Shown one piece after another: positions 5,600 to 36,384 of a stretch of 61,775 nt of DNA; position 1 is the first letter of the stretch, and each line of letters opens with the position of its first letter. Position numbers and translations under genes: made by a program. Source of the stretch: Prevotella multiformis DSM 16608 (lineage in GTDB: Bacteria > Bacteroidota > Bacteroidia > Bacteroidales > Bacteroidaceae); the NCBI RefSeq assembly GCF_000191065.1, contig NZ_GL872282.1, positions 914,273 through 976,047 on the forward strand, in the 5' to 3' direction. The notes below the pieces were generated by a model. That model saw only the letters and a list, made by a program, of their open reading frames with translations, had not been told where the DNA came from and did not search any database.

Positions 5600-5614
5600 C
5601 TACTTCTATGCGGA
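5600..5614. repeat. Putative att core of element A, integrase side
   Basis: CTACTTCTATGCGGA, matched with one mismatch at 19131-19145. The 285 bp between the lipoprotein start and integrase gene hold this core, an arm-type site TTACCAAATCGT (5748-5759) also present inverted in element B (34756-34767), and a -7 box TAATTTTG (5864-5871). No gene is seen in this stretch; the frame at 5697-6083 is a shadow of the integrase. Confidence 0.55.
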
Positions 5615-5884
5615 AGTATGGGAGTAGAAAGCAGAATATGGCATAAAATTCATATCTGACTGAAATACAGCGGATATTGCTTGTTTCTTCTTAGGGTTGC
5701 ATCATAGAAAACAGGCAGAAAAGGGAGCGAAAAGGAGGGAGTTCAGTTACCAAATCGTTCGACAAACGATGAAAGGAAAAGGACGGCTGAAAGTGGTAAC
5801 TAAAACGGTGTTTTCTCTTTCATTATCAATGTTTTGCATCGCTCAAAGTTCCTCAAAGAAGTGTAATTTTGCAAGTAAAAAACA

Positions 5885-7138
5885 ATGGAAAAAGAAAAAT
5901 TCAAGCTGCTTTTCTACCTCAAGAGAGGTACGCAGGACAAAAACGGAAAAAGTCCCATCATGGGACGCATCAGCGCAGGACGCTCTATGGTACAGTTCAG
6001 TTGCAAATGCTCGTGTACTCCTCGTTTGTGGGATAGTCGCAAGAACCGACTGCTGGGCAAGAGTGCCGAAGCCGTATCGGTAAACAAGGAACTTGACCGC
6101 CTACAAGTGAGCATACACAAGGTTTATGAGTCTCTTTCGGGTAAATCCGATGCTCCCATCACGGCAGAGCGAGTACGGGAATTGGTGTTCGGGCTAAACA
6201 GCGAGGCGCAGGGACTGCTTTATCATACGGACGAGTATATCGACCGCTTCCGTGAGCGTGTGGGCATAGACCGCAGCGAACGCAGACTAAAATGCCTGTT
6301 GCTCTTTCGCAAGCATCTGGCAAACTTCGTCAGGTATCGCTACCATGTGGAGGATATTCCCGTACAGAAAGCCGATGCCGCCCTTGTCAAGGACTTGGAA
6401 GACTACTTCGCCAAAGAAAAGGGCTTCAAGCTCAACACTTCGGCTGGTTATCTCTCCATGCTGGCTTCCTTGCTCAAAGACCTGCATAAACGGCATATCA
6501 TTGACACCTATCCTTTCATCAACCATTCCATTCGTTGGGAAGTGGGTACTCCACGTTACATCACGAGGGAGGAGGTAAGTCGTATCGCAGCCTTGGGAGA
6601 AGATAAATTGCAAGGCTATGAAAAAGTGTCGAGGGATATGTTCCTTTTCTCCTGCCTGACGGGACTTTCCTATACCGACGTGTATCACTTGACGGAGCAG
6701 CACATCTTTCACGAAGCGGGAATGACTTGGATACGCAAGCCGAGAATAAAGACGGGCAACGTGTGCCACATCCCCCTACTTCCCGAAGCCGCTGCCATTA
6801 TCAAGCGTTATCGGGGCATTCACACGAGGGCTTTCCGACACGAACCGCCCAAGGGGTATCTGCTGCCCATACCCGGATGCGACACGGTAAACATACACCT
6901 CAAAAAGATAGCACGGCTTTGCGGTATTCAGAAAACGCTGACCTATCACATGGCACGGCATACCTTCGCATCGCAGATGACACTGTCGAAGGGCGTGTCC
7001 ATTGAGAGCGTTTCCAAAATGCTCGGACACAGTCAAATCAAAACCACGCAAGTGTATGCGGAGACTTCTCCCGAGCGTGTCTTTCTGGACATAGAGAAAA
7101 TACTTCCACAACTCGCACATTATCAACTGACCAACTAA
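5885..7138 (+). CDS. Tyrosine recombinase/integrase of element A (first of pair)
   Basis: The protein has 417 residues. An N-terminal Arm-DNA-binding domain of the Bacteroidetes type (FKLLFYLKRGTQDKNGKSPI) is followed by a SAM-like core-binding domain at about 105-200. The C-terminal catalytic domain carries SCLTGLSYTDV (the first Arg is replaced by Tyr/Thr, usual in this subgroup), HMARHTFASQ, MLGHSQIKTTQVYAE with the nucleophilic Tyr. It presumably cuts and joins the att sites. The first Met lies 13 bp after the TAATTTTG box. The second integrase follows after 12 bp, so the two are co-transcribed. The relative in element B starts at 34597. Confidence 0.9.
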   Translation: MEKEKFKLLFYLKRGTQDKNGKSPIMGRISAGRSMVQFSCKCSCTPRLWDSRKNRLLGKSAEAVSVNKELDRLQVSIHKVYESLSGKSDAPITAERVRELVFGLNSEAQGLLYHTDEYIDRFRERVGIDRSERRLKCLLLFRKHLANFVRYRYHVEDIPVQKADAALVKDLEDYFAKEKGFKLNTSAGYLSMLASLLKDLHKRHIIDTYPFINHSIRWEVGTPRYITREEVSRIAALGEDKLQGYEKVSRDMFLFSCLTGLSYTDVYHLTEQHIFHEAGMTWIRKPRIKTGNVCHIPLLPEAAAIIKRYRGIHTRAFRHEPPKGYLLPIPGCDTVNIHLKKIARLCGIQKTLTYHMARHTFASQMTLSKGVSIESVSKMLGHSQIKTTQVYAETSPERVFLDIEKILPQLAHYQLTN

Positions 7139-7150: not shown

Positions 7151-8434
7151 ATGAAAAGTACATTTTCCATACTATTCTACACGGACAGAAGCAAGACCAA
7201 TGAACACGGAGTATGCGTAATCCGTTGCCGTATCACCTGCAATGGTACGTCCTCATCGTTTTCCACGCAGTTGCAAACTTCCCCCGATGAGTGGCTTGCC
7301 CGAAAAGGGCGCATCAAGGCGACAGCAGGTAATTCAAGCGGCATCAATCTGCAACTGAACTCAATCGAAGAGTGCTTGCATTCACTCTATGAACGTACAC
7401 TAAGGGAAGAAAACTATATCACGGCGGAATACCTCAAGGAGCGTTATATGCAGCAAAGTCGCCCTATGCCAACACTTGCGGAGCTATATCAATCCGTTTG
7501 TGAATACAAGGAGGAATTGCAGGGCAGAACCTTAAGCAAGGCAACCGTCAGGGCTTTTAAGGACAGCTACAAGAGTTTTGTTCATTTCCTGCAAGTAAGG
7601 GACAGGGCAGACTGTATGCCCACAGAGGTGGACAAGACTTTGCTTGAGGACTATCGCCTTTTCATGCTTCGGGACTTGGGAAACAAGGAAAGCAGTGTCG
7701 GCAACCGCCTACGCCACTTGCATCAGGTCATTCGCAAGGCATTGCAGGAGCGATACGTTCGTGAAGACCCTTTTGAACTCATAGACATAGAAACGCCTAC
7801 CTACGAGCGCAATGCACTTACGGCGGACGACCTGCAAAAACTCTTGGCTTACCGTCCGCACCGCTCAGTGGACAACCATTGCAGACTTATTTTCCTCTTG
7901 GGCTGTTTCACGGGGCTGGCATTCTCAGACTTAAAGAAACTCCGAATGGACGATGTTTATACATTCGGGGATGGGCGTAGGTACATATCGCTCTGTCGCA
8001 CAAAGACACAGAACAGAAGTATTGTCCCGTTACTGCCCATTGCCGAGAAAATACTCGCCATAGTGAGCCCCGGACGAAGGGAGGGGCTTTTCTTTCGAGA
8101 GTTTCCCAGCAACAGTAATTTCAATAGAACTATTCAGGAGATATGTATTAAGGCAGGACTGCCACCGCATACCCAAGCGACCTCGCACACCGCACGGCAC
8201 ACCTTTGCCACGACCATCTGTCTGGAGAACGGACTTCCGATAGAAACGGTGAGCAAGATGCTGGGGCATCGCTTTATCTCCACGACCGAGATTTATGCAC
8301 GGGTGACCAAGAGCAAGATTGCCAAGGAAATGCAACCCCTGATGGGTAGTGAGCATACAAGGGTACTGCGTAAAGCCTTACGGCTGTGTCCGTCAAGAAC
8401 ACCGAAAAAGTCAAGTCCCATAATTGGGATGTAA
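7151..8434 (+). CDS. Tyrosine recombinase/integrase of element A (second of pair)
   Basis: The protein has 427 residues. It has the same layout as its neighbour: Arm-binding domain (MKSTFSILFYTDRSKTNEHG), core-binding domain, catalytic domain with GCFTGLAFSDLKKL, SHTARHTFATTICLENG, KMLGHRFISTTEIYARV. It diverges strongly from the second integrase of element B, unlike the downstream backbone. Paired integrases are common in these elements and may act together. The gene ends inside a stem (TTACGGCTGT at 8378-8387 with ACAGCCGTAA at 8434-8443) that could attenuate read-through. Confidence 0.88.
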   Translation: MKSTFSILFYTDRSKTNEHGVCVIRCRITCNGTSSSFSTQLQTSPDEWLARKGRIKATAGNSSGINLQLNSIEECLHSLYERTLREENYITAEYLKERYMQQSRPMPTLAELYQSVCEYKEELQGRTLSKATVRAFKDSYKSFVHFLQVRDRADCMPTEVDKTLLEDYRLFMLRDLGNKESSVGNRLRHLHQVIRKALQERYVREDPFELIDIETPTYERNALTADDLQKLLAYRPHRSVDNHCRLIFLLGCFTGLAFSDLKKLRMDDVYTFGDGRRYISLCRTKTQNRSIVPLLPIAEKILAIVSPGRREGLFFREFPSNSNFNRTIQEICIKAGLPPHTQATSHTARHTFATTICLENGLPIETVSKMLGHRFISTTEIYARVTKSKIAKEMQPLMGSEHTRVLRKALRLCPSRTPKKSSPIIGM

Positions 8435-8488
8435 CAGCCGTAATGAATGATTCAAAAAAAGAAGTCCAACTTTTTAACAAGAAGAACA

Positions 8489-8974
8489 ATGAAACAGAAG
8501 AACAAAAAGGAAATTTCCTACTTCCGATTGAAGTTGGAAAGCTATATGAGTGAACATCACCCCGAGCGATTGGGAGACAAGGAGCTTATCACGGCAAGAG
8601 CCGACATGGCACTGACAGCCTACTGCGATGCCGTGGCGCAAGGTTTTAATCATTTAGAAGCAGAAAGAATAGCAAGTGAAGTGCTTTTCAGTGGACTGCA
8701 TTTCTCAAAGTACGATACCCTTGTTTCTGTCTTGGAGGACGAGTTTGAGAGGGAACTTCCTACACCGCTCCCCGAGAGGCTTTCGCTTTTATTGTTGGCG
8801 GACAAGGCTGTTCAAGCCACATTCGCCAAGTATGAACTGACGGACGCATTTGCCGCAAGCGGACAATACGACCGTCTTTACACCGAACTGACAGGCACGA
8901 TAGTGCTGCTCATCGAGAGCAACAACCTGCCAACGGTCAAACAGACGGAGGAGGCAAGCCCGAAGGCGTTGTAG
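8489..8974 (+). CDS. DUF1896-family protein
   Basis: With the start at 8489 (MKQKNKKEISYFRLKLESYM) the protein has 161 residues, exactly the length of its element-B counterpart at 31555-32040. An upstream ATG at 8447 would add 14 unmatched residues. The predicted fold is all-alpha and acidic. The family occurs in conjugative and mobilizable elements of Bacteroidetes; its biochemical role is unknown. It sits between the integrases and the structured RNA. Confidence 0.75.
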   Translation: MKQKNKKEISYFRLKLESYMSEHHPERLGDKELITARADMALTAYCDAVAQGFNHLEAERIASEVLFSGLHFSKYDTLVSVLEDEFERELPTPLPERLSLLLLADKAVQATFAKYELTDAFAASGQYDRLYTELTGTIVLLIESNNLPTVKQTEEASPKAL

Positions 8975-9906: not shown

Positions 9907-10221
9907 ATGGCAGAGAACGAAATCATTACACAGCAAGACCCTCAGATGCAGATGTTTGCACAACTGATGGAGGGCATCTTAAAGAAACTGGAGCGTTATT
10001 GCGCCACTGCCCGTCCGATGTTGGGTGGAGAGGTTTACCTCACTGGTGAAGAGGTTTGCAGCCAATTACAGCTCAGCACACGTACGCTCCAAGAGTACAG
10101 AAACTCAGGAACGCTTCCTTTCTACAAAATCGGAGGGAAGATACTCTACAAGCAGAGCGACATACAAGCCATGCTTGAAAAACACTATAACCCGATACCC
10201 AAGAAATTATGGCAAGAATAG
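9907..10221 (+). CDS. Helix-turn-helix (excisionase-like) protein 2
   Basis: The protein has 104 residues, with the wHTH at about 45-95 (YLTGEEVCSQLQLSTRTLQE, then GTLPFYKIGGKILYKQSDI). Its first helix pair is preceded by an acidic/hydrophobic tail that may dimerise. Its near twin is at 30410-30724. The stop overlaps the start of the DUF3408 gene by 13 bp, suggesting translational coupling. Confidence 0.82.
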   Translation: MAENEIITQQDPQMQMFAQLMEGILKKLERYCATARPMLGGEVYLTGEEVCSQLQLSTRTLQEYRNSGTLPFYKIGGKILYKQSDIQAMLEKHYNPIPKKLWQE

Positions 10222-10844
10222 ATGAACAAAGGAAACAGCGCTTGGAACAAGCCATTAGAGATATGGGAAATTATGGCGTTAAGCTCCGCAAGCCCGAAAA
10301 GTTGCCCGATTTTGACCAGCCCTCCGATTATGAAGAGGAGAAGAATAGATTTGAGCCTATAAAAATGGATGAAGATGATGAAGAAGAGGCTTTGTCCGAA
10401 GAGCCATTGACAGCGGAAGAGAAGCGAGAAAGAATATTGGAAGAAGCACTGAAACGGATGGCAGAGGACGGAACTACCGGGATTCCTTCACGGCGCACTG
10501 CGATGTTTGACCCTTCAGATGATGAAGATGCTTCGGAGGAAAAAATAATCAGCTCAGAGAAAATTAAAACGGGCACGGAAGAAGTTTCTCGTCAAGTGGG
10601 TAAGAGCAAGACGAAAGGCAAGGACAGAGAGGACTTAGCCCGGTTTCAAGGGAAATACCTCCGCCCCTTTCGCAACAGCCATCGCAAAGCTGTGTATGTG
10701 TCAGAGGAAACCCAACGAAGATTGGACTTCGTGGTGCGGAAAATCGGTGAGCAGGGAGCGAGCGTTTCAGGATACGTGGAACAAGTGCTTCGGGAACACC
10801 TCGACCAATACAAGGAGGATGTGGAAAGATGGCGGAAACTCTGA
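10209..10844 (+). CDS. DUF3408-family mobilization-associated protein
   Basis: The protein has 211 residues. The N-terminus (MARIDEQRKQRLEQAIRDMG) and the C-terminus (RKAVYVSEETQRRLDFVVRK then GASVSGYVEQVLREHL) match element B's 166-residue copy. The C-terminal part looks like a ribbon-helix-helix DNA-binding fold. The 45 extra residues are an acidic spacer (about 55-115). DUF3408 proteins accompany conjugative transposon mobilization genes. It ends just upstream of an oriT-like region. Confidence 0.78.
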   Translation: MARIDEQRKQRLEQAIRDMGNYGVKLRKPEKLPDFDQPSDYEEEKNRFEPIKMDEDDEEEALSEEPLTAEEKRERILEEALKRMAEDGTTGIPSRRTAMFDPSDDEDASEEKIISSEKIKTGTEEVSRQVGKSKTKGKDREDLARFQGKYLRPFRNSHRKAVYVSEETQRRLDFVVRKIGEQGASVSGYVEQVLREHLDQYKEDVERWRKL

Positions 10845-11045: not shown

Positions 11046-11465
11046 ATGAAAAGAAAGAAAACAAACAAGCCTGATGGCAAATGCACCACCTGCCCCAAAT
11101 GGAACAGATGGCATATCAGAATACCTAATCCCAAAGACCAGCAAAAAGTCATCGAATTATATCGAAAGTCTGGAGCAAAAACAAAGAGCGATTATCTAAG
11201 GGCAAGATTACTTGGAGAATCTTTCAAGGTTATCACAGAGAATTCTTCTAATGAGAAATACATGCGTGAACTCACTAACATAATATCCCAAATTTATAAG
11301 ATTGGTGTTCTCTATAATGAAGCAGTCAAGACACTTAACTGCTACCACTCAACAGCTACCGCCCAAAGAATGCTCCGCAAAATCGAAACTTATTCTGAAG
11401 CAATCATTAAACTGCAAGTGCAAGCGATAAAACTAACAGAGGAGTATTCCATGATTGTTGGGTAA
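11046..11465 (+). CDS. MobA/MobC-like mobilization accessory protein
   Basis: The protein has 139 residues. The N-terminal WNRWHIRIPNPKDQQKVIEL followed by KSGAKTKSDYLRARLLGESF resembles the ribbon-helix-helix proteins that recruit relaxases in Bacteroidetes mobilizable elements. A C-terminal coiled segment follows (about 85-135). The element-B relative at 29282-29713 aligns along its whole length, so this copy is complete. A relaxase gene would be expected next but hsdS lies there instead, convergent and overlapping by 33 bp. Confidence 0.72.
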   Translation: MKRKKTNKPDGKCTTCPKWNRWHIRIPNPKDQQKVIELYRKSGAKTKSDYLRARLLGESFKVITENSSNEKYMRELTNIISQIYKIGVLYNEAVKTLNCYHSTATAQRMLRKIETYSEAIIKLQVQAIKLTEEYSMIVG

Positions 11466-12638
11466 ATCATAATTTAGTCGAGAACGCTCGACACCGACTT
11501 TTACTTGTCCGTTCATCAGAAGGGGGAGAAGTTCGTCGCGCTGCTTAGTCAATTTTTCGATTTCTTGTAGCCTCAATAGTTGTTCATCGAACATAGGCGT
11601 TACTGTATCTACAAATTTCTTACAAATCGTTTCATTAAAGGCAAAACGGAAATCAGCCAAATCACCTAAGACAATATATGGAATAGAAGAGCCATGTTTA
11701 CCACCGCTATATATAGGTTGAAATAAGTATCTTAAAGTATAATAGAAGAATGATACGTTACGCACCTCTTCATCTAAAACGCAAGCATATGTCCTTTGAT
11801 ATAAATCGAATTTACCTCTATAAAAACCTACTCGTCCTGTATAACTCCCATTTCCTGAAACCAACACTGCATACCCGTCATAAATGTATTCGTTAGAAGT
11901 AATAGCCTCCGGCGCACAAGAAAAGAATTTATAATTTCCAGGAACAGCTTTGGACACATCTTTCTTACCAGTGAAGATTCTCATAAAGTCTTTGATTTTA
12001 CAATCTTTCCACCCTTGTGGTATCTCTCTCTTCAACTTCTCATTCCACCCCATCTTACCACCGCTACTTTTGTACGGCTTCCCATTCTCATCGGGAAAGT
12101 CAAATTGCACAAACCAGTAGTCGTAGAGTTGCTTTGCCATCGCCTCTAAATTATGATTTACCGCACGATTAAGGCTTAATTTATTAGTAATATCTATAAT
12201 CAACTTGCCGATATTCTTTTGCTCATGCAAAGTGAATGTCGGCAATTCATATCTCATAATCTGATCTTTATCTCCACGAGGCATTTTACTGCCTTTAGCT
12301 CCTTTCATTGCATATGCAAAAAAACTATCTTGTAACAGTAAGGCATAAAGGAATGTACTATCATTGCCTTGTTTTGCACGAAAGACCAAGACATCTGCCG
12401 AAGCTCCTCCATTTATATTTGCATACCAAACTTTTTTCAAATAGGGGCGAATATTGGCTACCAACACATCGCCTTTTAGGTAATGCGTTAGCGGACATAC
12501 AGTTGGCGGAAGGTTTGTTGCTACTGCTTTTCCTTGCTTGTTTTGTAAGATAGAATCAGTAGTAACATATTCTTCTAATGTAATTTGACTACTACTTATT
12601 TTATCTTCTACATATTCGGCAATTTGTGATAGCTTCAT
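11433..12638 (-). CDS. hsdS: Type I restriction specificity subunit HsdS, without HsdM/HsdR
   Basis: The protein has 401 residues in two target-recognition halves. TRD1 covers about 1-150, a conserved spacer helix follows (LNRAVNHNLEAMAKQLYDYW, about 155-175), TRD2 about 205-345, and the distal helix reads LTKQRDELLPLLMNGQVKVG. The last 16 or so residues (ERSRLNYDLP onward) read across the end of the mobilization gene, so the 3' end may have been replaced. No methyltransferase or HsdR gene of type I is in the window. A recombinase gene lies 83 bp upstream on the same strand, the usual layout of phase-variable hsdS loci in Bacteroidetes. It could supply specificity to HsdM/HsdR encoded elsewhere. 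Confidence 0.85.
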   Translation of the reverse strand: MKLSQIAEYVEDKISSSQITLEEYVTTDSILQNKQGKAVATNLPPTVCPLTHYLKGDVLVANIRPYLKKVWYANINGGASADVLVFRAKQGNDSTFLYALLLQDSFFAYAMKGAKGSKMPRGDKDQIMRYELPTFTLHEQKNIGKLIIDITNKLSLNRAVNHNLEAMAKQLYDYWFVQFDFPDENGKPYKSSGGKMGWNEKLKREIPQGWKDCKIKDFMRIFTGKKDVSKAVPGNYKFFSCAPEAITSNEYIYDGYAVLVSGNGSYTGRVGFYRGKFDLYQRTYACVLDEEVRNVSFFYYTLRYLFQPIYSGGKHGSSIPYIVLGDLADFRFAFNETICKKFVDTVTPMFDEQLLRLQEIEKLTKQRDELLPLLMNGQVKVGVERSRLNYDLPNNHGILLC

Positions 12639-12664
12639 TTTACTTCATTCTTTTGTTTACGATG

Positions 12665-12672
12665 CAAAGATA
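12665..12672 (-). promoter_or_regulatory. -7 promoter box of hsdS
   Basis: TATCTTTG on the minus strand, 27 bp before the hsdS ATG, matches the Bacteroidetes TAnnTTTG box. It implies hsdS is transcribed separately from the recombinase gene. Confidence 0.55.
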
Positions 12673-12721
12673 CAGAATGAAGCTCATAATTAAGAATTTT
12701 CATAAGATAAAGTGGCTATTA

Positions 12722-13738
12722 TCAGCCTATAAACTTGCGATGTGCAATCTTGACATTGGTTTGATTGACCATAGCATAATGTAAAGTAGTATCAATCTTT
12801 ACGTGTCCTAATAGCTTCTGCACTTGTTCTATCGGCATTCCCTTATCAATAGCCATCGTTGCCAATGTGCGCCTGAACTTATGTGGGTGCACTTTGCTAA
12901 TGCCAGCTTTTCGCCCTAATTGCCGTAATCGCACTTCTACACCACTTATTGTTAGGCGATTATGTGGTGAAGATAATGATACAAAAAGTGCAGGGTTATT
13001 GTCTTTACGGCTTTCCAAGTAGCGTTTAAGGTGGATTTTGGTGCGAGCATTAAAATATACCTCTCGTTCTTTATTGCCCTTGCCAAAGACCACGCATTGC
13101 CGTTCCTGAAAATCTATATCTTCTCGGTTCATCTTTGCTAATTCACCTACACGCATACCCGTAGAAGCCAATAAATCAATCATCGCAAGGTCGCGTATCT
13201 CGTGGCAGGTATCACGCAATACTTCCATATTTTCATCACTCAGCACTTCCTTTACAAGGCTTTCCGTTCTAACCTTGTGTATTCTTCGCACAGGGCTCTT
13301 ACCAATATAGTCTTCATCTTCCAACCATGCAAAGAAGCTGGAAAAGATACGCCGAAGGTTATCGATGGTAACACGGCTTGAAAGTCTTTCTTCTTGATAA
13401 TCAGAGAGGTAATTGCGAATGTCGTTTGTAACTATCACGTCTATCTTTTTGTTCAACTTTGCAAGCAGGGCTTCTATTGAACTGCGATAATAATGCAAAG
13501 TTTTATCAGAACAGCCTTCTATCTTCTTGGCAGCAATAAAAGCATTAAGCAATTCATTATTAGCCTTATTTCTTTGCGACACTTCATCGCCTAATGGTTT
13601 GATTTCTACGTTCTTAAAGTTGTCATTCAATACTGTATTAAGAAATAGTAATTGTTCTGGAGTCAAATTTTGAGCCATTGCAGTTACTATTCTCGTTTTT
13701 ACTTCTTCTTTCATAGGATTTTTAGTCGCATTATACAA
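12722..13738 (-). CDS. Tyrosine recombinase, probable HsdS shuffler
   Basis: The protein has up to 338 residues; a second Met at 13714 (MKEEVKTRIV) is an equally good start. It is a XerC/D-type protein without the Arm domain of the element integrases: core-binding domain at about 50-140 and a catalytic domain with STGMRVGEL (Arg), HPHKFRRTLATMAIDKG (His-x-x-Arg), KLLGHVKIDTTLHYAMV (Tyr). Recombinases of this type next to hsdS genes invert or exchange target-recognition segments. Here only one hsdS is in the window, so its partner sites are not visible. Confidence 0.85.
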   Translation of the reverse strand: MYNATKNPMKEEVKTRIVTAMAQNLTPEQLLFLNTVLNDNFKNVEIKPLGDEVSQRNKANNELLNAFIAAKKIEGCSDKTLHYYRSSIEALLAKLNKKIDVIVTNDIRNYLSDYQEERLSSRVTIDNLRRIFSSFFAWLEDEDYIGKSPVRRIHKVRTESLVKEVLSDENMEVLRDTCHEIRDLAMIDLLASTGMRVGELAKMNREDIDFQERQCVVFGKGNKEREVYFNARTKIHLKRYLESRKDNNPALFVSLSSPHNRLTISGVEVRLRQLGRKAGISKVHPHKFRRTLATMAIDKGMPIEQVQKLLGHVKIDTTLHYAMVNQTNVKIAHRKFIG

Positions 13739-13773
13739 AATTTGAGCGAAAAGACAAAGAAGTAAATCATAAT

Positions 13774-13825
13774 TTAACGTGAGTTCGACGGATTAAAACA
13801 TCTGATTTTGTCGAACTCACGTTAA
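13774..13825. repeat. Perfect 16-bp inverted repeat equal to an IS end
   Basis: TTAACGTGAGTTCGAC (13774-13789) is mirrored by GTCGAACTCACGTTAA (13810-13825) around 20 bp. The first 17 bp are identical to the terminal sequence of the IS982-like element at 61414-61430. It looks like two IS ends left after an internal deletion, but could serve as a terminator for the surface operon ending at 13929. Confidence 0.6.
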
Positions 13826-16634: not shown

Positions 16635-17384
16635 TTATTTGTTAAGCCATTGCTTGAATTTGCTGGCTCTGGTTTTGCTGATTATTATATTATTATCGCT
16701 GCATCCCTTGATCCTAACATGAAGTTTAGAGCTGAAAAAGAATGAAATCTTTTCTAAGTAATTGATGTTGGCGATATATTGTCGATTAATACGAAAATAT
16801 ATGTCAGGATTGAGGGTTGTTTCTAAATCTGACAGACCGTCGTTCATGACATAGACTTCACCATCATGTGTATAAGCCACTACTTGACGTTCTCCACTAT
16901 AAATGCAACTGATTTCGTCAGCTTTCAATGGGACTAACTCGTCACCCTTGGTAACCAAAAAGCGTGAGCGCCATATTTGCATATCCCGTGCCACTGCAGA
17001 CAGTGCGGTAGGTGGAGTAGCTTTATGTAATAGCATATTGATTTTATCCAAAGAGTTGAACAGATCTTTACTATTCACAGGTTTAAGCAAATAATCTATG
17101 CCATTTGATTTGATAGCATTCATTGCATATTCATCATATGCAGTTGTAAAAATGACGAAGGAGGTTGGCATGTTCAACTCAAAGGCTTCAAATACAGTAT
17201 GTGCACCAAGCCTTATGTCTGATATGATTAAATCATAATCGTGGTCACTTGTAAGAAAGTTCTTGACCTCATCAGTTGTTTGGAATGGACCAAGGATAGT
17301 AATGGAATCATCGTAATCCTTTATCAATCTAATGAGGCGATTGGCACTTAATGTCTCATCTTCTATAATAACAATCTTGTTCAT
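16635..17384 (-). CDS. LytTR-family response regulator
   Basis: The protein has 249 residues. The receiver domain at 1-120 has the acidic pair (IIEDE), phosphoacceptor Asp56 (LIISDIRLG), and Lys101 (YLLKPV). The C-terminal LytTR DNA-binding domain covers about 140-247 (FLVTKGDELVPLKADEISCI, then YFRINRQYIANINYLEKI). Its start overlaps the kinase stop by 4 bp. It should bind paired direct repeats such as those at 16189-16219. Confidence 0.9.
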   Translation of the reverse strand: MNKIVIIEDETLSANRLIRLIKDYDDSITILGPFQTTDEVKNFLTSDHDYDLIISDIRLGAHTVFEAFELNMPTSFVIFTTAYDEYAMNAIKSNGIDYLLKPVNSKDLFNSLDKINMLLHKATPPTALSAVARDMQIWRSRFLVTKGDELVPLKADEISCIYSGERQVVAYTHDGEVYVMNDGLSDLETTLNPDIYFRINRQYIANINYLEKISFFFSSKLHVRIKGCSDNNIIISKTRASKFKQWLNK

Positions 17385-18397
17385 TTTTCAATAATTGGAA
17401 CGTATACTGTAAATTCTGTGTTGCTCTCCCTAATATCAATACCTGTCCCTGTCTCGATGATGTATCTTTGTTGCAAATTTTGCAATCCCATACCTAAGGA
17501 AAAGGAAGGTTTCGTCACATTGTCTTTGTTTGTTTGAATATTGTTTGAAACTAAAATTTTATTATCCTTGCGATCTATACATATAATCAATGGGCTTTCA
17601 CGGGAAGCCAAATTATGTTTAATCGCATTTTCCACAAGGACTTGTATGCTCATTGGCAACATATACTCATTACTATTTATAGGGAAATCAGCAATACGGA
17701 ATACAACTGACTCTCCGAACCGCACATGCAATATCCCGGTATAATTCTTTGCAAAAAGCATTGCTTCTGACAACGGAACTATATCCATGTCAATTGTTTT
17801 TAATACATGTCTGTACACATTTGCAAGACGAAGCGTAAATTCTTCAGCCTTAGCCCCGTTTTCTCTTGTCAACTCAGCCAAGACACTTAGGCTGTTGAAT
17901 AGAAAATGTGGATCTAACTGAGCTTTGAGAGATTTCTTCTTAAACGATATATATTCATTATAGTGACTTTCAACGATCTTTGTATAGTAATGATTCACGT
18001 TGATCAATCCTATGAGAGATGCAATTAAGGCAAAGATATAAGAGTTTCCCCAAAAATCATTATCAGGGACATTGCTACAAATTACGCCCTCATAAATAAA
18101 CTCACAAATAAAAGCAAGAATTATATTTATAAAAATCACGCACCATGCAATTCCTGTTAATTGCTTATTTGTTATATGCTGACGTTTCTCAGACAGTTTA
18201 ATAAGCTGATTACATATAAAAATGCTTGTCAAGGAGAATAATGAGCAATAAACAAAATCTTCAATAATTTCACTTGAATGGTTTAAAACACTCCGTGAAA
18301 AATCATCATAATCTCCAGCAAGCCATATCACATCATAAAGAAAAAATGTTATGATAGTGATTAGCAACCATTGTTTAATCTGATGTTTTGTTTTCAT
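17381..18397 (-). CDS. Membrane sensor histidine kinase (LytS/YehU type)
   Basis: The protein has 338 residues. Four hydrophobic segments lie at about 10-27, 45-63, 82-103 and 117-134 with no large periplasmic domain. They are followed by the His_kinase domain with LDPHFLFNSLSVLAEL (phosphoacceptor His164) and a GHKL ATPase domain (VENAIKHNL N-box; LGMGLQNLQQRY G-box). It presumably senses a membrane or intramembrane cue and phosphorylates the LytTR regulator that overlaps it by 4 bp. Confidence 0.9.
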   Translation of the reverse strand: MKTKHQIKQWLLITIITFFLYDVIWLAGDYDDFSRSVLNHSSEIIEDFVYCSLFSLTSIFICNQLIKLSEKRQHITNKQLTGIAWCVIFINIILAFICEFIYEGVICSNVPDNDFWGNSYIFALIASLIGLINVNHYYTKIVESHYNEYISFKKKSLKAQLDPHFLFNSLSVLAELTRENGAKAEEFTLRLANVYRHVLKTIDMDIVPLSEAMLFAKNYTGILHVRFGESVVFRIADFPINSNEYMLPMSIQVLVENAIKHNLASRESPLIICIDRKDNKILVSNNIQTNKDNVTKPSFSLGMGLQNLQQRYIIETGTGIDIRESNTEFTVYVPIIEK

Positions 18398-25400: not shown

Positions 25401-25472
25401 AGAGTTTTATAGGATGCACAGAAGGCAATAGATGGCAAAAACAAAATAAATGTAACCTAAATAACTTCAATT

Positions 25473-27684: not shown

Positions 27685-28680
27685 ATGGAGAGCAGTATTA
27701 TATTATATACTAATGACAATGGCGATGTAAACATACAAGTGCATTATGAGGATGGTACTTTTTGGCTTACACAAAAGCGCATGGCTGAGCTATTCAATGT
27801 AAATGTTAGTACCATTAATGAACACTTAAAAAGTATCTTCAGCACTGGGGAGTTATCAGAAGAGGGAACTATTCGGAAATTCCGAATAGTTCAAAATGAG
27901 GGCACTCGCCAAGTGACACGGGAAGTCACATTCTACCCTTTAGATGCCATTATTGCAATAGGGTATAGAGTAAATTCAGAGCAAGCGACACGCTTTAGAA
28001 AATGGGCTACGAAAGTGCTTAATTCGTTCATAACCAAAGGTTATGTACTTGATAAAAAACGATTGAAGCAAGGAGAACAGTTTGGACACGATTATTTTAA
28101 GGAATTACTGGAAGATATTCGGGAGATACGTGCCAGCGAGCGACGCTTCTATCAGAAAATTACAGATATTTATGCGCTGTCGATAGACTACGACAAACAA
28201 GCGCCAGAGACAAAACGCTTCTTTGCATCGGTGCAGAACAAGTTGCATTGGGCAATTTCCGAACAGACGGCAGCCGAAATTATTTATGGGAAGGCTAATG
28301 CAAGCCAACCTCACATGGGACTGACCACATGGAGGCATGCCCCAGACGGGAAGGTAATGAAGTCGGATATAACAATTGCCAAGAATTATCTCGACCAAAG
28401 GCACATGACGGCAATCAATCGTCTTGTATCCGCCTATCTTGATTTGGCAGAAGATCGTGCTGAACAAGAAATTCCAATGACCATGCATGATTGGAGTACA
28501 CTACTTGATGGATTTTTGACTGTTGCTGGTCGTCCTATCCTTGACGGATTAGGGAGTATCTCCGCATTGGAGGCTAAGGTGAAGGCGGAACGAGAATATG
28601 AGGTGTTCCGCCATAAACAAGACGCAGAATATATATCTGATTTCGATAAAGAAATAAAACGATTAAAAGGAGAGGAATAG
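27685..28680 (+). CDS. RhuM-family protein
   Basis: The protein has 331 residues. It starts MESSIILYTNDNGDVNIQVH and has the typical DGTFWLTQKRMAELFNVNVS then VREVTFYPLDAIIAIGYRVN style blocks, followed by a C-terminal helical part (about 175-331, PMTMHDWSTLLDGFL). RhuM proteins were first described in a Salmonella pathogenicity island but are frequent passengers in restriction operons; the molecular role is unknown. It follows the GHKL gene by 46 bp and ends the operon. Confidence 0.85.
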   Translation: MESSIILYTNDNGDVNIQVHYEDGTFWLTQKRMAELFNVNVSTINEHLKSIFSTGELSEEGTIRKFRIVQNEGTRQVTREVTFYPLDAIIAIGYRVNSEQATRFRKWATKVLNSFITKGYVLDKKRLKQGEQFGHDYFKELLEDIREIRASERRFYQKITDIYALSIDYDKQAPETKRFFASVQNKLHWAISEQTAAEIIYGKANASQPHMGLTTWRHAPDGKVMKSDITIAKNYLDQRHMTAINRLVSAYLDLAEDRAEQEIPMTMHDWSTLLDGFLTVAGRPILDGLGSISALEAKVKAEREYEVFRHKQDAEYISDFDKEIKRLKGEE

Positions 28681-29281: not shown

Positions 29282-29713
29282 TTAGCCCATTCTATCCTTG
29301 TATTCATTACTTAATTTTAAGGTCTTTTCTTTCAGGACAGTAAGTTCTTTTGTCTGCTGGATAAGTTCTTGTAACAATGCTTTTACACTTTTCTCTGCCG
29401 TATAAAGATGCATCAAGCGGACGACTTGATTATAGTTTGTGCCTATCTTATGTACTTGGGCTGTGAGTTCGGAGAGCTTGCGGTAATACTCTACGGCAGA
29501 TTTATCCACCGTTATCACTTTGAAACTCTCCCCAAGAATGCGGGCACGCACGAAATCAGACTTGCTTATTGCCCCGGATTTGTTGTATAGGTCGATGGCA
29601 CGCAGTTGGTCTTTCACATTGGGCATACGGGTGTCCCATCTGTCCCAGTGTGGAACTTCTACAGTGTTTCGGTGTCCGTAACGATTCTCATTGGCTATTT
29701 CTAATTTGGTCAT
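29282..29713 (-). CDS. MobA/MobC-like mobilization accessory protein, element B
   Basis: The protein has 143 residues. The conserved VPHWDRWDTRMPNVKDQLRA and SKSDFVRARILGESFKVITV align with 11046-11465 of element A along the whole length, though more diverged than the HTH genes. It is a predicted ribbon-helix-helix DNA-binding protein of a relaxosome. No relaxase follows; the next gene is convergent. Confidence 0.72.
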   Translation of the reverse strand: MTKLEIANENRYGHRNTVEVPHWDRWDTRMPNVKDQLRAIDLYNKSGAISKSDFVRARILGESFKVITVDKSAVEYYRKLSELTAQVHKIGTNYNQVVRLMHLYTAEKSVKALLQELIQQTKELTVLKEKTLKLSNEYKDRMG

Positions 29714-29921: not shown

Positions 29922-30422
29922 TCAGAGTTTCCGCCATCTTTCCACATCATCTTTGTATTGGTCGAGATGTTCTCGAAGTACCTGCTCCACATATCCTGAA
30001 ACGCTTGCTCCCTGCTCACCAATTTTCCTCACCACGAAGTCCAACTTTCGTTGAGTTTCCTCTGATATATACACGGCTTTGCGGTGACTGTTGCGAAAGG
30101 GCTGGAGATATTTCCCCTGAAACTCGGATAATTGCTTCCTGTTCTTTGTTTTTCCCATTCGTTGATGATTGGTAGAAGTAGCCCTTTCCGTTGGTGACAA
30201 CTCTGTTTCTTGATAGGACGGTTGAGAATAGTCCTTGTGACTCTCCTTGTCATTTTGTTCCTCAACTTTAACAGGCTCAAATCTTTTCTTTTCCTCTTCA
30301 TAATCTATGGGCTGATCAAAATCGGGCAACTCTTCGGGCTTGCGGAGCTTAACGCCATAAATGCCCATATCTCGAAGGGCTTGTTCCAGACGTTGTTTCC
30401 TTTGTTCATCTATTCTTGCCAT
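29922..30422 (-). CDS. DUF3408-family mobilization-associated protein, element B
   Basis: The protein has 166 residues. The ends are nearly identical to the element-A copy (MARIDEQRKQRLEQALRDMG; GASVSGYVEQVLREHLDQYK) but the middle is shorter and different, lacking the acidic 45-residue spacer. The C-terminal 60 residues look like a ribbon-helix-helix fold. It overlaps the HTH-2 gene by 13 bp as in element A. Confidence 0.78.
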   Translation of the reverse strand: MARIDEQRKQRLEQALRDMGIYGVKLRKPEELPDFDQPIDYEEEKKRFEPVKVEEQNDKESHKDYSQPSYQETELSPTERATSTNHQRMGKTKNRKQLSEFQGKYLQPFRNSHRKAVYISEETQRKLDFVVRKIGEQGASVSGYVEQVLREHLDQYKDDVERWRKL

Positions 30423-30724
30423 AATTTCTTGGGTATTGCGTTATAATGCCTTTCAAGCATTGTCTGTATGTCGCTCTGCTTGTATAGTATCTTCCCTCCG
30501 ATTTTGTAGAAAGGAAGTATTCTTGCATTTCTGTACTCTTGGAGCGTGCGTGTGCTGAGCCGTAATTGGCTGCAAACCTCCTCGCCCGAAAGGTAAACTT
30601 CACCATTCAGCATCGGACGGGCGGTAGCGCAATAACGCTCCAATTTCTTCAATGTACTCTCCATCAACTGAGAAAACATCTGCATCTGAGGGTCTTCCTG
30701 CGTAATGATTTCATTCTCCGCCAT
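30410..30724 (-). CDS. Helix-turn-helix protein 2, element B
   Basis: The protein has 104 residues, close to 90% identical to 9907-10221, with wHTH YLSGEEVCSQLRLSTRTLQE. It is middle gene of the HTH-HTH-DUF3408 run and lies 3 bp after HTH-1. Confidence 0.82.
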   Translation of the reverse strand: MAENEIITQEDPQMQMFSQLMESTLKKLERYCATARPMLNGEVYLSGEEVCSQLRLSTRTLQEYRNARILPFYKIGGKILYKQSDIQTMLERHYNAIPKKLWQE

Positions 30725-31554: not shown

Positions 31555-32040
31555 CTACTTCGGGCTTGCTTCCTCCGCCTGTCTGACCGTTGGTAGCTTA
31601 TTGCTCTCGATGAGCAGCACAATCGTGCCTGTGAGTTCGGTGTAAAGACGGTCGTATTGTCCGCTTGTGACAAATGTGTCCGTCAAACCGAACTTGTCGA
31701 ATGTGGCTTGAACAGCCTTGTTCGACAACAATATGCGTGCAAACTTCTCGGGGAGCGGTGCAGGCAGTTCCATTTCAAACTCGTTTTCCAAGACAGAAAT
31801 AAGCGTGTCATACTTGGAAAAGTGCAAACCTTGATACAACACCTCACTTGCCATACTCTCTGCTTCGAGGTGCGAAAAACCTTGTACCACGGCATCGCAA
31901 TAAGCAGCGAGAGCCATGTCTGCCCGTGCCGTGATAAATTCCGTGTCTTTCAATCTTTCTGGGTGGTGCTCCCTCATAAAACTTCTTAACTTCAACCGAA
32001 AGTAGGAAAGTTCCTGTTTGATGTCCCGTTTTTTATTCAT
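31555..32040 (-). CDS. DUF1896-family protein, element B
   Basis: The protein has 161 residues, starting MNKKRDIKQELSYFRLKLRS. It aligns end to end with 8489-8974. Conserved blocks are EHHPERL, TARADMALAAYCDAVVQGF and SGQYDRLYTELTGTIVLLIE. The function is unknown; it belongs to the mobile backbone. Confidence 0.75.
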   Translation of the reverse strand: MNKKRDIKQELSYFRLKLRSFMREHHPERLKDTEFITARADMALAAYCDAVVQGFSHLEAESMASEVLYQGLHFSKYDTLISVLENEFEMELPAPLPEKFARILLSNKAVQATFDKFGLTDTFVTSGQYDRLYTELTGTIVLLIESNKLPTVRQAEEASPK

Positions 32041-32097: not shown

Positions 32098-33372
32098 TCA
32101 TTCCTCATGTCTACGTTGCAATATGTTCTGCCGTGCAATCGACTTGCAATAACCCTCAAAGGCTGAATGCTCCCTGTCAGTGAGTGCAGTCATATCCTCT
32201 TGTATCTTATGGTCGGTTATCTTTCCGTAGATTTGTGTCGTACCTATATTGCTGTGTCCGAGCATCTTGCTGAGCGTTTCCATCGAAATACCATTGGAAA
32301 GGCAAATCGTGGTTGAGAATGTGTGGCGAGCCATGTGAAAGGTCAAGCCCTTATCTATCCGGCATATCTGCCCGATGTTCACACACGCAAAGGATGCTTT
32401 CCTTATTGTAAGATTGGGAAATATCAATTCGTCTGCTTTCTTGTCCTTGATATAAAGCGAAAGGATTTGGTTGGCAATGGGCAGGAGTGGAATGATGGCT
32501 TCCACGTCTGTTTTCTGCCTTTTGATGCGGATTTCCTCCGTACCATCTGCATTACGGATGATATGCTTCGGTTTGAGCCGTTGCATATCCACACGAGCCA
32601 ATCCTGTAAAAGCGCAGAAAAGAAAGAGTTGCCTTGCTCGCTCAAACTGTCTGTCAATGATGGGAGTTTGCAGTACCCGCTGCAGTTCCTCTGTTGTGAG
32701 ATACCTGCGTGTGCGGTGTGGCAGTTCTGCCTTGTAATCCACAAATGGATCGATGCGGATGTATTTCTTCTGCTGACCGATGCCGATGAGCTTTCTAAGG
32801 AAGATGACCGCTACCTGAATAGTGGCAAGAGAAAGGTTGCGCTCTGATTTAAGATAGAAGTCCAGCCCCTCGATAAAGCCATAGTCCAACAGGGAGTAAC
32901 GAATATCCTCTAATCCTAAGCGTTCACGCAAATAACCCTCTATGAGTTGTGTGGAATAGATGTAGTTGGCAAAGGTCGGCTTGGCTACCGTTATTCCTAC
33001 ACAAGGACGCTTTTCCTCTATGAAAAGTCGTGCTTCCTCCATAAGAAAACCTTTGGGATTGTCTTCTTCCATGAGTTCACGCTTCAGCAACTCAGCGGTA
33101 ATATAGCCACGTTGCCAGACTAATTCTTGATACTTCGCTTTGGCTTGTTCCTCTTTGGTTTGCAAATAGCGGTTAATTTCCTTTGTTTCTCCTCCTGTTC
33201 CCTTGCACCGTCCCTTACGACTGTCCCAAAGTTCGGGAGCGATTTCCTTGCCCGTGCTGTATTGCACCTGCTCACCGTCTATGGTGATGCGTCCCATAAT
33301 CGGGCATTTGCCGTTCTTTTTCTCTTTGGAGCGATTGATATAGAATAGTGTCTTGAATGTACTTCGTGCCAT
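32098..33372 (-). CDS. Tyrosine recombinase/integrase of element B (second of pair)
   Basis: The protein has 424 residues. The Arm-binding domain is MARSTFKTLFYINRSKEKKN, with a core-binding domain at about 115-215. The catalytic domain has CAFTGLARVDMQRL (Arg), FHMARHTFSTTICLSNG, KMLGHSNIGTTQIYGKI (Tyr). It is only distantly related to the second integrase of element A, so target choice has diverged while the backbone has not. It starts 4 bp after the stop of the first integrase. Confidence 0.9.
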   Translation of the reverse strand: MARSTFKTLFYINRSKEKKNGKCPIMGRITIDGEQVQYSTGKEIAPELWDSRKGRCKGTGGETKEINRYLQTKEEQAKAKYQELVWQRGYITAELLKRELMEEDNPKGFLMEEARLFIEEKRPCVGITVAKPTFANYIYSTQLIEGYLRERLGLEDIRYSLLDYGFIEGLDFYLKSERNLSLATIQVAVIFLRKLIGIGQQKKYIRIDPFVDYKAELPHRTRRYLTTEELQRVLQTPIIDRQFERARQLFLFCAFTGLARVDMQRLKPKHIIRNADGTEEIRIKRQKTDVEAIIPLLPIANQILSLYIKDKKADELIFPNLTIRKASFACVNIGQICRIDKGLTFHMARHTFSTTICLSNGISMETLSKMLGHSNIGTTQIYGKITDHKIQEDMTALTDREHSAFEGYCKSIARQNILQRRHEE

Positions 33373-33376: not shown

Positions 33377-34597
33377 TCAAAGTTTTAAGGTGAATGTATC
33401 TTGTATTCGCTGCTGTATCGCTTGCATATCCCGATGGATTCTTTCGGAGGAAACCGCTGCATATACCTGTGTTGTTCTCAGGTTGGTGTGTCCGAGCATA
33501 CGGCTCACCGTTTCGATAGGTACACCTGCCGAGAGCGTGATAATCGACGCAAAGGTATGGCGAGCCATATGAAAGGTTAGCGGAGTTCCCATGCCGATGT
33601 TTCGTTGTATGTAGTGCATGCCATTGAGGACAATGTCGATGGTCGGCACGTCAAAGACAAAGCCTGCCCTTATCCCTCTATAACGATTCATGATAGTCAG
33701 CGCAGGGGGAAGCACCTGTACACGGTACGGTGTCTTGGTCTTCATGCGTCTACCCTTGATGCAGAGTTCCCCCTCTTCCAAAACAATGTTTTCCTCACGA
33801 AGATTGCGGACATCTGAGATTGCCAGACCTGTGAAGCAGGAGAAGACGAACAAATCACGCACAATGCGGTAATTCTCCCACTCAATCTCCAAGTCAATTA
33901 TCTTTTGTAGTTCGTCTTGCGTGATGCATCTCGGCTCTCCCTTAGGGCGTTCATAGCTGTAACCAAAGAAAGGATAGAAATCCGGGACGCCTTTCTTCAC
34001 CGCCATACGGACAATGGTCTGCAAGGTAGATAGGGCGCTTGATATGCTGCTGCGTTTCAGCTTGCGGTCGATGGTGAGATAATACTCGAAGCCCTCGATA
34101 AAGGATTTGTCCAGTTGTGAAAGTGGAATGTCGCTTACCCTGTGTTTCTTCTGCACATACTCATGGAGCAGGGAGAGCTGGTAGGTACGGAGCTTGAATG
34201 TCTTTAATTCTCGGTCGATACCGATACGTTCCTTTGTCTGTGTGAGATACTCGCTGAAACTCTCCAAGAGCAAGGCTTGACGGTGGATTTGTCCCTGATA
34301 GGCATCCCTCACATCGGTGGCGGTAAAAGATTCTTCCCTTTCACTGAGTTCGTGAAAGCGTGAGTGGATGAGTGCAGTACATTCACCGAGTTTCTGATTG
34401 ACGGACACCGCCATTGCACTCTTGCCGACGAGCCGTTGCTTACGACTGTCCCAAAGAGTGAGCGGAGTCTTGCACTTGGTAGAAAAGCCAGAATGGGTTC
34501 TGCCAACTGAGATGCGCCCGATAACAGGCACAAGTCCTTTCTTGTCGGTTCGTTTCGCCTGAACGAAGAACGATACTTTGAGTTTGTTTTCCTTCAT
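33377..34597 (-). CDS. Tyrosine recombinase/integrase of element B (first of pair)
   Basis: Start at 34597 (MKENKLKVSFFVQAKRTDKK) gives 406 residues and fits the related element-A protein. The longer frame from 34720 would cross the -7 box TACCTTTG (34632-34639). Arm-binding, core-binding and catalytic domains are present (SCFTGLAISDVRNL, FHMARHTFASIITLSAG, RMLGHTNLRTTQVYAAV). It is presumably the enzyme that recognises the GATTATGCCCGCAA core. The 297 bp upstream hold the promoter, arm-type repeats and the att core, and no gene. Confidence 0.88.
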   Translation of the reverse strand: MKENKLKVSFFVQAKRTDKKGLVPVIGRISVGRTHSGFSTKCKTPLTLWDSRKQRLVGKSAMAVSVNQKLGECTALIHSRFHELSEREESFTATDVRDAYQGQIHRQALLLESFSEYLTQTKERIGIDRELKTFKLRTYQLSLLHEYVQKKHRVSDIPLSQLDKSFIEGFEYYLTIDRKLKRSSISSALSTLQTIVRMAVKKGVPDFYPFFGYSYERPKGEPRCITQDELQKIIDLEIEWENYRIVRDLFVFSCFTGLAISDVRNLREENIVLEEGELCIKGRRMKTKTPYRVQVLPPALTIMNRYRGIRAGFVFDVPTIDIVLNGMHYIQRNIGMGTPLTFHMARHTFASIITLSAGVPIETVSRMLGHTNLRTTQVYAAVSSERIHRDMQAIQQRIQDTFTLKL

Positions 34598-34887
34598 TTT
34601 TCTGTCGTTTTTTCTAAATTTCCTTTGCTTGCAAAGGTACAGATGAACAAGTATTCCTGAGCGATGCAGAAAAATGAAAGATGAAGAATAAAAACCTATG
34701 ACACAGTTGTTTACATTCAATTCGTAACCCCTTTTTGCTTTTTCCCTGATGGGTTACGATTTGGTAACGGAACTCCTGCCGTTTGATGCTCGTTTTTGCT
34801 AATCCCCATAATGGCAGGAAAATGCTAAATAATGATATTTCAAATAGTTACATTCCCTATATTTCCCTCTGTTTCCCTTAATTCTTA

Positions 34888-36384
34888 ATGACTGATTATG
34901 CCCGCAAGATGAGCTTAGATTTACGCATGATTGATGAAAATAGTTACTCAGACCATATCGACAACAAGGCAAGCCACTGTGCGAAACTACTCAATGACTA
35001 CTATCGGAAGTATGATGCACAAAAAGGTACGCAGTTTGTGTTCTCTGATTTGGGCACTTATAAGCCAGGTGGAGACTTCAATGTCTATTCGGAAATCAAG
35101 CGCAAGCTGGTAGAAGACTATCATATCCCTTCCTACGAAATACGCTTTATCCAAGAGTGTAAGAACGAGAAGGCAAAAAAAGCGATGGTAGATGCGATGA
35201 ACCGTGGAGATTTTCGTATTATTTTCGGCTCTACATCCATGTTGGGTACTGGTGTGAATGCTCAGCAACGTGCCGTAGCGGTCCATCATTTGGACACGCC
35301 TTGGCGACCTTCGGACTTAGAGCAGCGTAACGGACGAGCTGTGCGCAAGGGAAACCTTATTGCCAAAGAATTTGCGGACAACAAGGTCGATGTCATCATC
35401 TATGCTGTGGAACGCTCGTTGGACAGTTACAAGTTCAACCTGCTACACAACAAACAGCTCTTCATCAATCAGCTGAAGACCAACACGCTCGGCAGTCGTA
35501 CCATTGACGAGGGTTCGATGGACGAGGACAGTGGCATGAACTTCTCAGAGTACGTGGCCGTACTTTCGGGTAATACCGACCTTTTGGAAAAAGCAAGACT
35601 TGACAAGAAGATTATCACCTTGGAATCCGAGCGCAAGAACTTTCTCCGTGAGCGTGATGCCGCAACGGGCAAGTTGGCGGAGATTGACAGCTCCGTGTCT
35701 TTCCATTCAGACAAGATTAAGGAAGTCAAGGAAGATTTTGCGTGCTTTGAAAAGCGTGTGGAACGTGATGCAGATGGCAATCCCATCAACAAACTGGTCA
35801 TCAAAAGTGTGGAGGACAGCATGGACGTCAAGGTCCTTGCCGCACGCCTACAGAAGATTAACGATAAGGCACGCACTAAAGGCGAGTACAATAAAATCGG
35901 TGAGATTTATGGCTTTTCCATCATGGTGAAGACGGAGAGTACCTCAAAGGACTTATTTGACTGCTCCGTGAACCGTTTCTTTGTCAAAGGGCAGGAGAGT
36001 ATCTACTACACCTATAATAACGGTAAGTTGGCTACGGACCCGAAACTTGCATGCGAGAACTTCTTGGGCGCGTTGGGGCGCATCCCGAAAGTGATTGAGT
36101 CGCACGAGAAGGAGAAAGAGAAGGTTGCTGCCAACAAGGAAATCTACACTGCTATTGCTAATGGGACGTGGAAGAAAGAGGACGAGCTTCGCTCGCTCAA
36201 AGGGCAGTCGGCAGAGTTGGACAGAAAGATTGCCTTGACGATTACTGCGAACAAAGAGGATAAAGAGGAACAGGAAAATAGTCTGTCCGATAATGAGATT
36301 TCTACATCAATAAAAAATGGCAATGAGCAGGCGCAAGAAGCGGATAATCGCTCACTGGGTTTTCGTCCGAAATGGCGGCTCTAA
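34888..36384 (+). pseudogene. C-terminal part of the helicase/DNA-methylase gene
   Basis: The frame holds 498 codons. After TDYARK it continues MSLDLRMIDENSY and contains helicase motifs V and VI (RIIFGSTSMLGTGVNAQQRA; HHLDTPWRPSDLEQRNGRAV), then a long coiled region. This is the C-terminal third of the giant SNF2-like helicase/methylase proteins of Bacteroidetes conjugative elements. The 5' part is separated by element B; the missing upstream portion is partly at 19132-19361. An ATG in the element (34888) happens to open the frame, so a truncated product could be made. A terminator follows at 36408. Confidence 0.8.
34894..34907. repeat. att core of element B, integrase side
   Basis: GATTATGCCCGCAA, identical to 19348-19361. 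The arm site ACGATTTGGTAA (34756-34767) is the inverse of 5748-5759 in element A, at almost the same distance from the core (127 against 134 bp). Confidence 0.75.

Follow-up and report, generated by a model that had tools for sequence, protein, structure and literature searches.

Two elements at one methylase-helicase gene

The window analysed here, a 61,775-nt stretch of Prevotella multiformis DSM 16608 (contig NZ_GL872282.1, positions 914,273 to 976,047), carries two related integrative elements, A (5604-19140, 13.5 kb) and B (19348-34907, 15.6 kb), which lie tail to tail with a gap of 0.2 kb. B interrupts a methylase-helicase gene of the kind found in integrative and conjugative elements (ICEs), and A has its right end inside the same helicase frame, 0.2 kb upstream of B. 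An original prediction, made from the letters of the window, had described a tail-to-tail pair of mobilizable elements in one helicase gene; this stands for B and for the right end of A, but A's left end lies outside the gene, and its left flank in the window has no helicase match. The gene pieces, element ends and shared genes are as follows.

5600..5614, + strand: A left core; A-type homology starts at 5603-5604
5748..5759, + strand: A integrase-side arm word, mirrored in B (sequence comparison)
5885..7138, + strand: A int1, tyrosine recombinase with arm-binding domain (PF00589, PF17293)
7151..8434, + strand: A int2, second tyrosine recombinase (Pfam)
8447..8974, + strand: A DUF1896 gene, backbone (PF08989; 76% to the B copy)
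9907..10221, + strand: A HTH_17 gene, backbone, possible excision factor (PF12728; 87.5% to the B copy)
10209..10844, + strand: A DUF3408 gene, backbone (PF11888)
11046..11465, + strand: A MobC-like gene (PF19514)
19008..19075, + strand: A distal arm, mirrored in B (sequence comparison)
19131..19145, + strand: A right core, within the methylase-helicase reading frame (sequence; tblastn)
19135..19362, + strand: methylase-helicase middle piece, 76 codons between A and B (tblastn, 80% to amino acids 1371-1446 of the intact gene)
19348..19361, + strand: B tail-side core copy (exact 14-bp repeat)
19422..19489, - strand: B distal arm (sequence comparison)
29282..29713, - strand: B MobC-like gene (PF19514)
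29922..30422, - strand: B DUF3408 gene (PF11888)
30410..30724, - strand: B HTH_17 gene (PF12728)
31555..32040, - strand: B DUF1896 gene (PF08989)
32098..33372, - strand: B int2 (Pfam)
33377..34720, - strand: B int1 (Pfam)
34756..34767, - strand: B integrase-side arm word (sequence comparison)
34894..34907, + strand: B integrase-side core copy (exact 14-bp repeat)
34888..36384, + strand: methylase-helicase 3′ part, Helicase_C (PF00271; tblastn)

The boundaries of B agree with what had been predicted, an identical 14-bp repeat whose removal in one copy restores the helicase frame. The repeat, GATTATGCCCGCAA, is exact at 19348 and 34894, and neither strand of the window holds another place within 2 mismatches. 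When the flanks of B are joined with one copy of the 14-mer, they form a single open frame that matches amino acids 1371-1900 of an intact protein (~1,954 amino acids) from the same genome (60% over 534 columns, straight through the B site) and, in one alignment with 7 gap residues in total, the end of a 2,073-amino-acid frame in genome G075 (85% over 573 columns). For A, the predicted 15-bp core with one mismatch, its right copy in the helicase gene, was recovered as well: a single base separates the 15-mer at 5600 from that at 19131, and other A-type elements start at the base that matches 5603-5604, or 5607 where the preceding bases are N. Both sites are unbroken in L096 (G075) and L098 (G026), where the A site reads TTCTATGCGGAGAT and the B site GACTACGCC. 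Uninterrupted homologues, the check proposed for the predicted insertions, thus run through both sites; A is nevertheless no simple insertion in the window, its left junction being elsewhere.

Target sites across genomes

A search of 200 genomes with A int1 gave matches in 43 at E 1e-60. Besides the window there were 16 close A places, 12 of which were fetched, in a set that overlaps with that of the named genomes in some genomes. Together with the window this set yielded 11 readable A left ends, 8 of them abutting helicase codon ~1375 and 3 (window, L043, L049) not; the left end in L045 is preceded by a run of N, and L053 yielded none. In the named genomes a left end was recognised at 26 of 36 A loci, of which 19 lie at helicase codon ~1375, 6 lie elsewhere and 1 lies behind N; 10 loci had no recognised left end, although the helicase match in one of these, L159, stops at the same place nonetheless. 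For B, int1 found 17 places in 12 of the 200 genomes at E 1e-150, and 11 of the 17 abut helicase codon ~1438.

Among the copies read in these two tables, no A element occupies the B site and no B element the A site. The orientation at each site is constant, so that double occupancy comes out tail to tail. The expectation that both integrase sets prefer similar gene-internal sites therefore needs changing, because each family has its own codon. The word beginning TATGC that the two cores had been said to share is real as letters; it carries little weight, given that two A copies, L152 and L178, read AAT, as the target does, where A's left end has GCG. The left ends of these two copies lie in a different lineage of the helicase, and it looks as though the target had supplied the bases between the strand cuts.

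Integrases nearly identical to those of A (95-100%) occur in records of Prevotella, Hoylesella, Alloprevotella, Porphyromonas and Phocaeicola, a spread over genera that, at the level of sequence, points to recent horizontal movement by a route left unspecified. In a plasmid collection, 3 records have A-like DNA.

Joint occupancy of the two sites

A 160-amino-acid probe spanning both sites matched 32 of the 200 genomes. Sorted by where the match breaks, the 66 helicase copies comprise 40 uninterrupted copies, 7 broken at the A site only, 6 at the B site only and 13 at both, such that 26 of 66 are broken at precisely the A codon, the B codon or both. Outer fragments were counted once, and a match of 25% was left out. 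Two double copies are identical contigs of one assembly, and the contig of one A-only copy (L124) ends about 10 codons beyond the B site. Recognisable tails of A and B border 10 of the 13 doubly broken middle pieces, in seven genomes (the window, G076, G003 and G145, with two loci each in G010, G029 and G162), one of the A tails being diverged. In G076, G003 and G145 the 5′ part of the helicase gene is present to the left of A in the same A-B pair (the 34 kb between the two ends of A in G145 were examined in part).

These site counts, together with the constant codons and orientations, make it likely that A and B represent two tandem-integrase families, each repeatedly found at its own fixed codon of the methylase-helicase gene in Bacteroidota ICEs, with ~0.2 kb between the two codons. 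Both families are predicted to ride on these ICEs. Two simpler accounts of the pair can be set against the same counts. Ordinary mobilizable transposons with loose target choice could have come to lie side by side by chance; the related tandem-integrase elements MTnPi1-3 of Prevotella intermedia are described as being of low specificity in the available part of one source (PMC5704250), and some copies of A and B do lie at other sites. Most copies of each family, however, are found at one codon of one gene, and the counts (19 of 25 readable A left ends in the named genomes, 11 of 17 B places and 26 of 66 gene copies) contradict loose targeting, leaving this account very improbable.

Alternatively, the A-B pair may be one composite unit that formed once and was inherited or transferred as a block. 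Over all 66 copies the two sites are indeed broken together above expectation (odds ratio 12.4, p = 4.5e-5). A tree of the middle piece places 29 copies in a host clade (support 93/95; both 12, A only 6, B only 5, none 6), within which the association is undetectable (odds ratio 2.4, Fisher p = 0.44), and the overall signal is accordingly read as a lineage effect. Copies with A alone or B alone are scattered in the tree, where occupancy needs 15 changes of state, and the A copies at the site have ~78 to 95% DNA identity to the A of the window over a long left piece, with cargo open reading frames (ORFs) of varying size. A single composite origin is hence improbable, if somewhat less so than loose targeting.

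A shared backbone with exchanged integrases

From the outer end inwards, A and B have the same order of genes: two tandem tyrosine recombinases, then DUF1896, HTH_17, DUF3408 and MobC-like genes. The mirrored backbone that had been predicted takes the form of inverted repeats, the longest being 919 nt (88%) and 742 nt (84%), with a further one of 311 nt (range 84-88%), and the backbones match at 82-91%. Cargo differs between the elements, and the proteins diverge unevenly, with identities of 87.5% for HTH, 76% for DUF1896, 38% for int1 and 34% for int2. The predicted arms are present with adjusted dimensions. The distal arms are real and far above chance (alignment score 62, against 23 for the best of 500 shuffles), but extend over 68 nt at 55-60 bp from the cores, near the 54-56 bp at 71-76 bp that had been claimed. 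The integrase-side arms at 5748-5759 and 34756-34767 match more weakly, yet still above chance (39 versus 27 in shuffles), and lie 133 and 126 bp from the cores in place of 134 and 127.

A tree was built from a 0.9-kb backbone piece of 19 elements (8 rows A, 9 B and 2 unlabelled, L049 and L051; five hits <600 nt, in L065, L073 and L068, were excluded). A and B rows are mixed in it, and the well-supported branches force at least 2 switches of integrase type. Because the backbones mix while the integrases differ, integrase modules were exchanged: judged from these sequences, the backbone stayed common while the integrase pair, and the target with it, was replaced, be it A by B or B by A. The pair in the window, one backbone with two integrase sets 0.2 kb apart, constitutes a clean natural system for how tandem integrases set their target.

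Mobility and the resident ICE

Two traits of integrative and mobilizable elements (IMEs) are present in A and B. Each has its own integration module, with two PF00589 genes, and each has direct repeats of an attachment core at both ends, identical over 14 bp in B and 15 bp long with one mismatch in A, whose ends are in different loci. The scanned ORFs of A and B contain tyrosine recombinases only, the serine integrases of the streptococcal SNF2-nested IMEs being missing among them, and gave no relaxase or primase match. The relaxase profile PF03432 had no match in 11 A or B spans of 7 genomes and none in the window, nor is it among the 25 commonest of the 62 families matched in 71 of 147 ORFs at A and B loci. 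The label "mobilizable" is therefore unproven from the sequences, which have a MobC-like gene in each element and no PF03432 relaxase.

Riding on the ICE is predicted because no relaxase gene was found in A or B. Each integrase pair would recombine a short core, TTYTAT in A and the 14-mer region in B, probably helped in excision by the shared arms and the shared HTH protein; transfer would then be passive inside the ICE, or in trans through the relaxase of another ICE.

The surroundings of the gene fit an ICE in several genomes. In G003, G145 and G061, genes for a type IV coupling protein (T4CP), a PF03432 relaxase and a TraN-like protein (DUF4138) lie on the same contig as the broken helicase gene, outside the elements and ~18 to 53 kb from it, and G012 likewise has T4CP, PF03432 relaxase and TraN-like genes on the contig of the broken gene, outside the elements. 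In G076, topoisomerase and DUF4099/DUF3945 genes are directly upstream of the helicase gene.

Several observations weigh against two site-specific families that ride on ICEs. First, specificity is strong, not absolute: other sites account for 6 of the 25 A left ends and 6 of the 17 B places, and 3 of the 13 double copies (G046 and the twin contigs of G075) and 2 of the 7 A-only copies (G162) have other DNA at the A site. Second, the link to an ICE varies. The T4CP and relaxase genes of G076 are 41 to 55 kb from the broken helicase gene with a second, intact helicase copy in between, so that they may belong to another ICE. In the genome of the window the T4CP is a frame of 304 amino acids, compared with 669-783 in 14 of 16 T4CP matches from eight genomes; the remaining match is also short, at 248. 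Between the T4CP and the TraN-like gene there is no PF03432 match. With the T4CP cut short and this relaxase missing, the resident ICE of the window genome is, as far as its genes tell, itself broken and decayed, and the ride has ended here. Third, the relaxase search covered PF03432 only; A and B could have a relaxase of another family, or an origin of transfer (oriT), and their MobC-like gene suggests some mobilisation in trans.

The left end of A in the window

In the window, A is preceded by a TonB-receptor operon on the opposite strand (748-5560), the upstream region of which abuts A; at the corresponding position the related G076 locus carries ICE genes. When amino acids 1-1370 of the intact homologue were searched in this genome, the only match was the intact copy at 0.24 Mb, 0.7 Mb away. 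An ICE DUF4099 gene just outside the window breaks off ~60 bp to the left of position 1, and up to that point the DNA is 81% identical to the G076 locus; if the gene order was as in G076, the stretch up to 5600 would replace the rest of the DUF4099/DUF3945 region, the topoisomerase gene and the first 1,370 codons of the helicase gene. A plausible course is that A and B first entered the ICE gene and that these codons and the neighbouring topoisomerase gene were lost later, when the left end of A recombined, either by action of A's integrase at a secondary site or by way of a second A copy. The A of the window is 99.95% and 99.96% identical, over 5.9- and 5.4-kb pieces, to an A copy in G076 whose insertion site is unrelated.

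An uninterrupted left locus was sought in 100 genomes, 5 of which had matches, all short except that in the genome itself; an empty site at 5600 was not shown. A mis-sized excision was also considered, which predicts a further A core towards the right-hand end of the ICE remnant. It was unsupported, as outside 5600 and 19131 the window has nothing with <3 mismatches to the core, and nothing with <4 at 35-44 kb.

Why this gene

The intact homologues of the interrupted protein have methylase (N6_Mtase or Eco57I), SNF2 and Helicase_C domains. The gene may be chosen because it is conserved in ICEs and dispensable for transfer; a composite streptococcal ICE with a guest in snf2 retained low-frequency transfer (PMC12942858). 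Alternatively, breaking it may pay off. The latter possibility has a precedent in mhgA of the Bacteroidales GA1 ICEs, an N6-methylase and SNF2 helicase gene of the same architecture that is often broken by mobile DNA: in the accessible text of PMC8102008, of 15 strains in which GA1 and GA2 ICEs occur together, 11 lack the gene or have it disrupted, compared with 31.2% of 125 strains with GA1 alone. A and B might thus knock out an exclusion function of the ICE, so that additional ICEs able to move them could enter the cell. In all 8 helicase copies read, the left end of A brings the reading frame to a stop within 5 to 8 codons, and the domains of the host gene are those of mhgA. The breaks described in mhgA are independent transposase insertions, unlike the fixed codons and two integrase families seen here. 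The likeness to mhgA is, however, one of domain make-up, and the exclusion by mhgA is itself correlational. An uninterrupted second copy is moreover kept in 12 of the 16 genomes with a broken copy, so that the function need not be lost, which speaks against a benefit of breakage. We consider loss of exclusion unlikely, though the least improbable of the alternatives. A broader version, in which sister families lacking a relaxase divide one ICE gene between them by swapping integrase modules and gain helpers as the broken gene lifts a barrier to ICEs, is slightly less likely still.

The use of two separate codons of this gene raises the question of why the methylase-helicase gene is chosen, as a safe seat or as a barrier worth breaking. 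Tyrosine-integrase families in Bacteroidota use the same kind of gene as serine-integrase families in streptococci, which points to convergence on one landing place.

Relation to known elements

The comparisons that follow draw on the accessible portions of the cited papers. The closest precedents come from streptococci, where IMEs and Tn1806-like ICEs are nested in snf2 of ICEs of the Tn5252/ICESa2603 family (PMC7168690, PMC5704250, PMC12942858). Like A and B, these guests sit at fixed internal sites of an ICE gene for a methylase-SNF2 helicase, and 1 to 3 IMEs per ICE have been described, with two sites known in single ICE genes (traG site 1/site 2, Maff2 S1/S2; PMC7168690, PMC5704250). They differ in having serine integrases and in belonging to Firmicutes, whereas A and B belong to Bacteroidota, have two sets of tandem tyrosine integrases on a single shared backbone, and lack a PF03432 relaxase.

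Closer in integrase type are MTnPi1-3, which also have two tandem tyrosine integrase genes (PMC4755523). Most of their types, unlike A and B, have relaxase and primase genes, and their target specificity is low, with attachment sites of 11 bp, TTAC/TTGC N5 (PMC5704250); 19 of 25 A left ends at one helicase codon are at odds with such low specificity. In its available text, PMC4755523 names no fixed codon or helicase gene, and the word "helicase" occurs 0 times. The same source reports internal integrase genes in CTnPi2 and CTnPi3, for which its authors thought MTn-like insertion possible, so that nesting in Prevotella ICEs had already been suggested. NBU1, NBU2 and Tn4555 are, like A and B, integrative elements of Bacteroidales with tyrosine integrases, and are helped by ICEs, but they have a single tyrosine integrase type and a MobP relaxase; NBU1 and NBU2 target the 3′ ends of tRNA genes and Tn4555 has two preferred sites (PMC5704250).

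An open-access literature search returned, among the matches listed, no recognisable report of fixed-site elements in an ICE methylase-helicase gene of Bacteroidota. Guests in snf2, guests at two sites, tandem integrases and nesting are each already known, and the combination seen here differs from each precedent.

Cargo and flanking DNA

The remaining features of the elements and of the ICE downstream are these.

11462..13776, - strand: A cargo cassette, HsdS (ORF 11433-12638) and its own tyrosine recombinase (12722-13738), with a 15-bp direct repeat at its ends
16635..18397, - strand: A cargo, LytTR response regulator and histidine kinase (Pfam)
19870..27638, + strand: B cargo, C5 methylase, McrB-like AAA protein, LlaJI-like protein and 721-amino-acid protein (Pfam, PADLOC)
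27685..28680, + strand: B cargo, RhuM-like protein (PF13310)
36495..42123, no strand assigned: ICE remnant to the right of B, with AbiEii, AbiEi and AAA_25 genes; some of its DNA matches the helicase neighbourhood in G076, G046, G061 and G162

The HsdS cassette of A is flanked by the direct repeat GTAAATCATAATTTA. The A of G076, otherwise 99.95% identical, has a single copy of this repeat and lacks the cassette, which therefore looks like a small integrative HsdS unit inside A. A third copy of the repeat, of inverted type, is found at 12147, in the HsdS gene.

The four-gene cargo block of B (19870-27638) is possibly a restriction-type defence system; its 721-amino-acid protein has no Pfam or PADLOC match. 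ORFs of 742 amino acids, the same length as the LlaJI-like one, occur in the B-type loci L067 and L069, a likeness by length only. At its integrase end B places an ATG before the 3′ part of the helicase gene. This start is not conserved between B copies and was given no meaning.

To the right of B, DNA that matches helicase neighbourhoods of relatives continues, in pieces, up to ~42.1 kb. A 0.6-kb repeat is present at 40622-41218 and, inverted and 83% identical, at 58036-58636, and also in G003 (L056:16149-16714, 86%); by eye, its ends look like terminal inverted repeats. A near-perfect palindrome of ~53 bp (41780-41832, 93% to its own reverse complement) lies in the ICE remnant, within DNA that matches the G076 locus.

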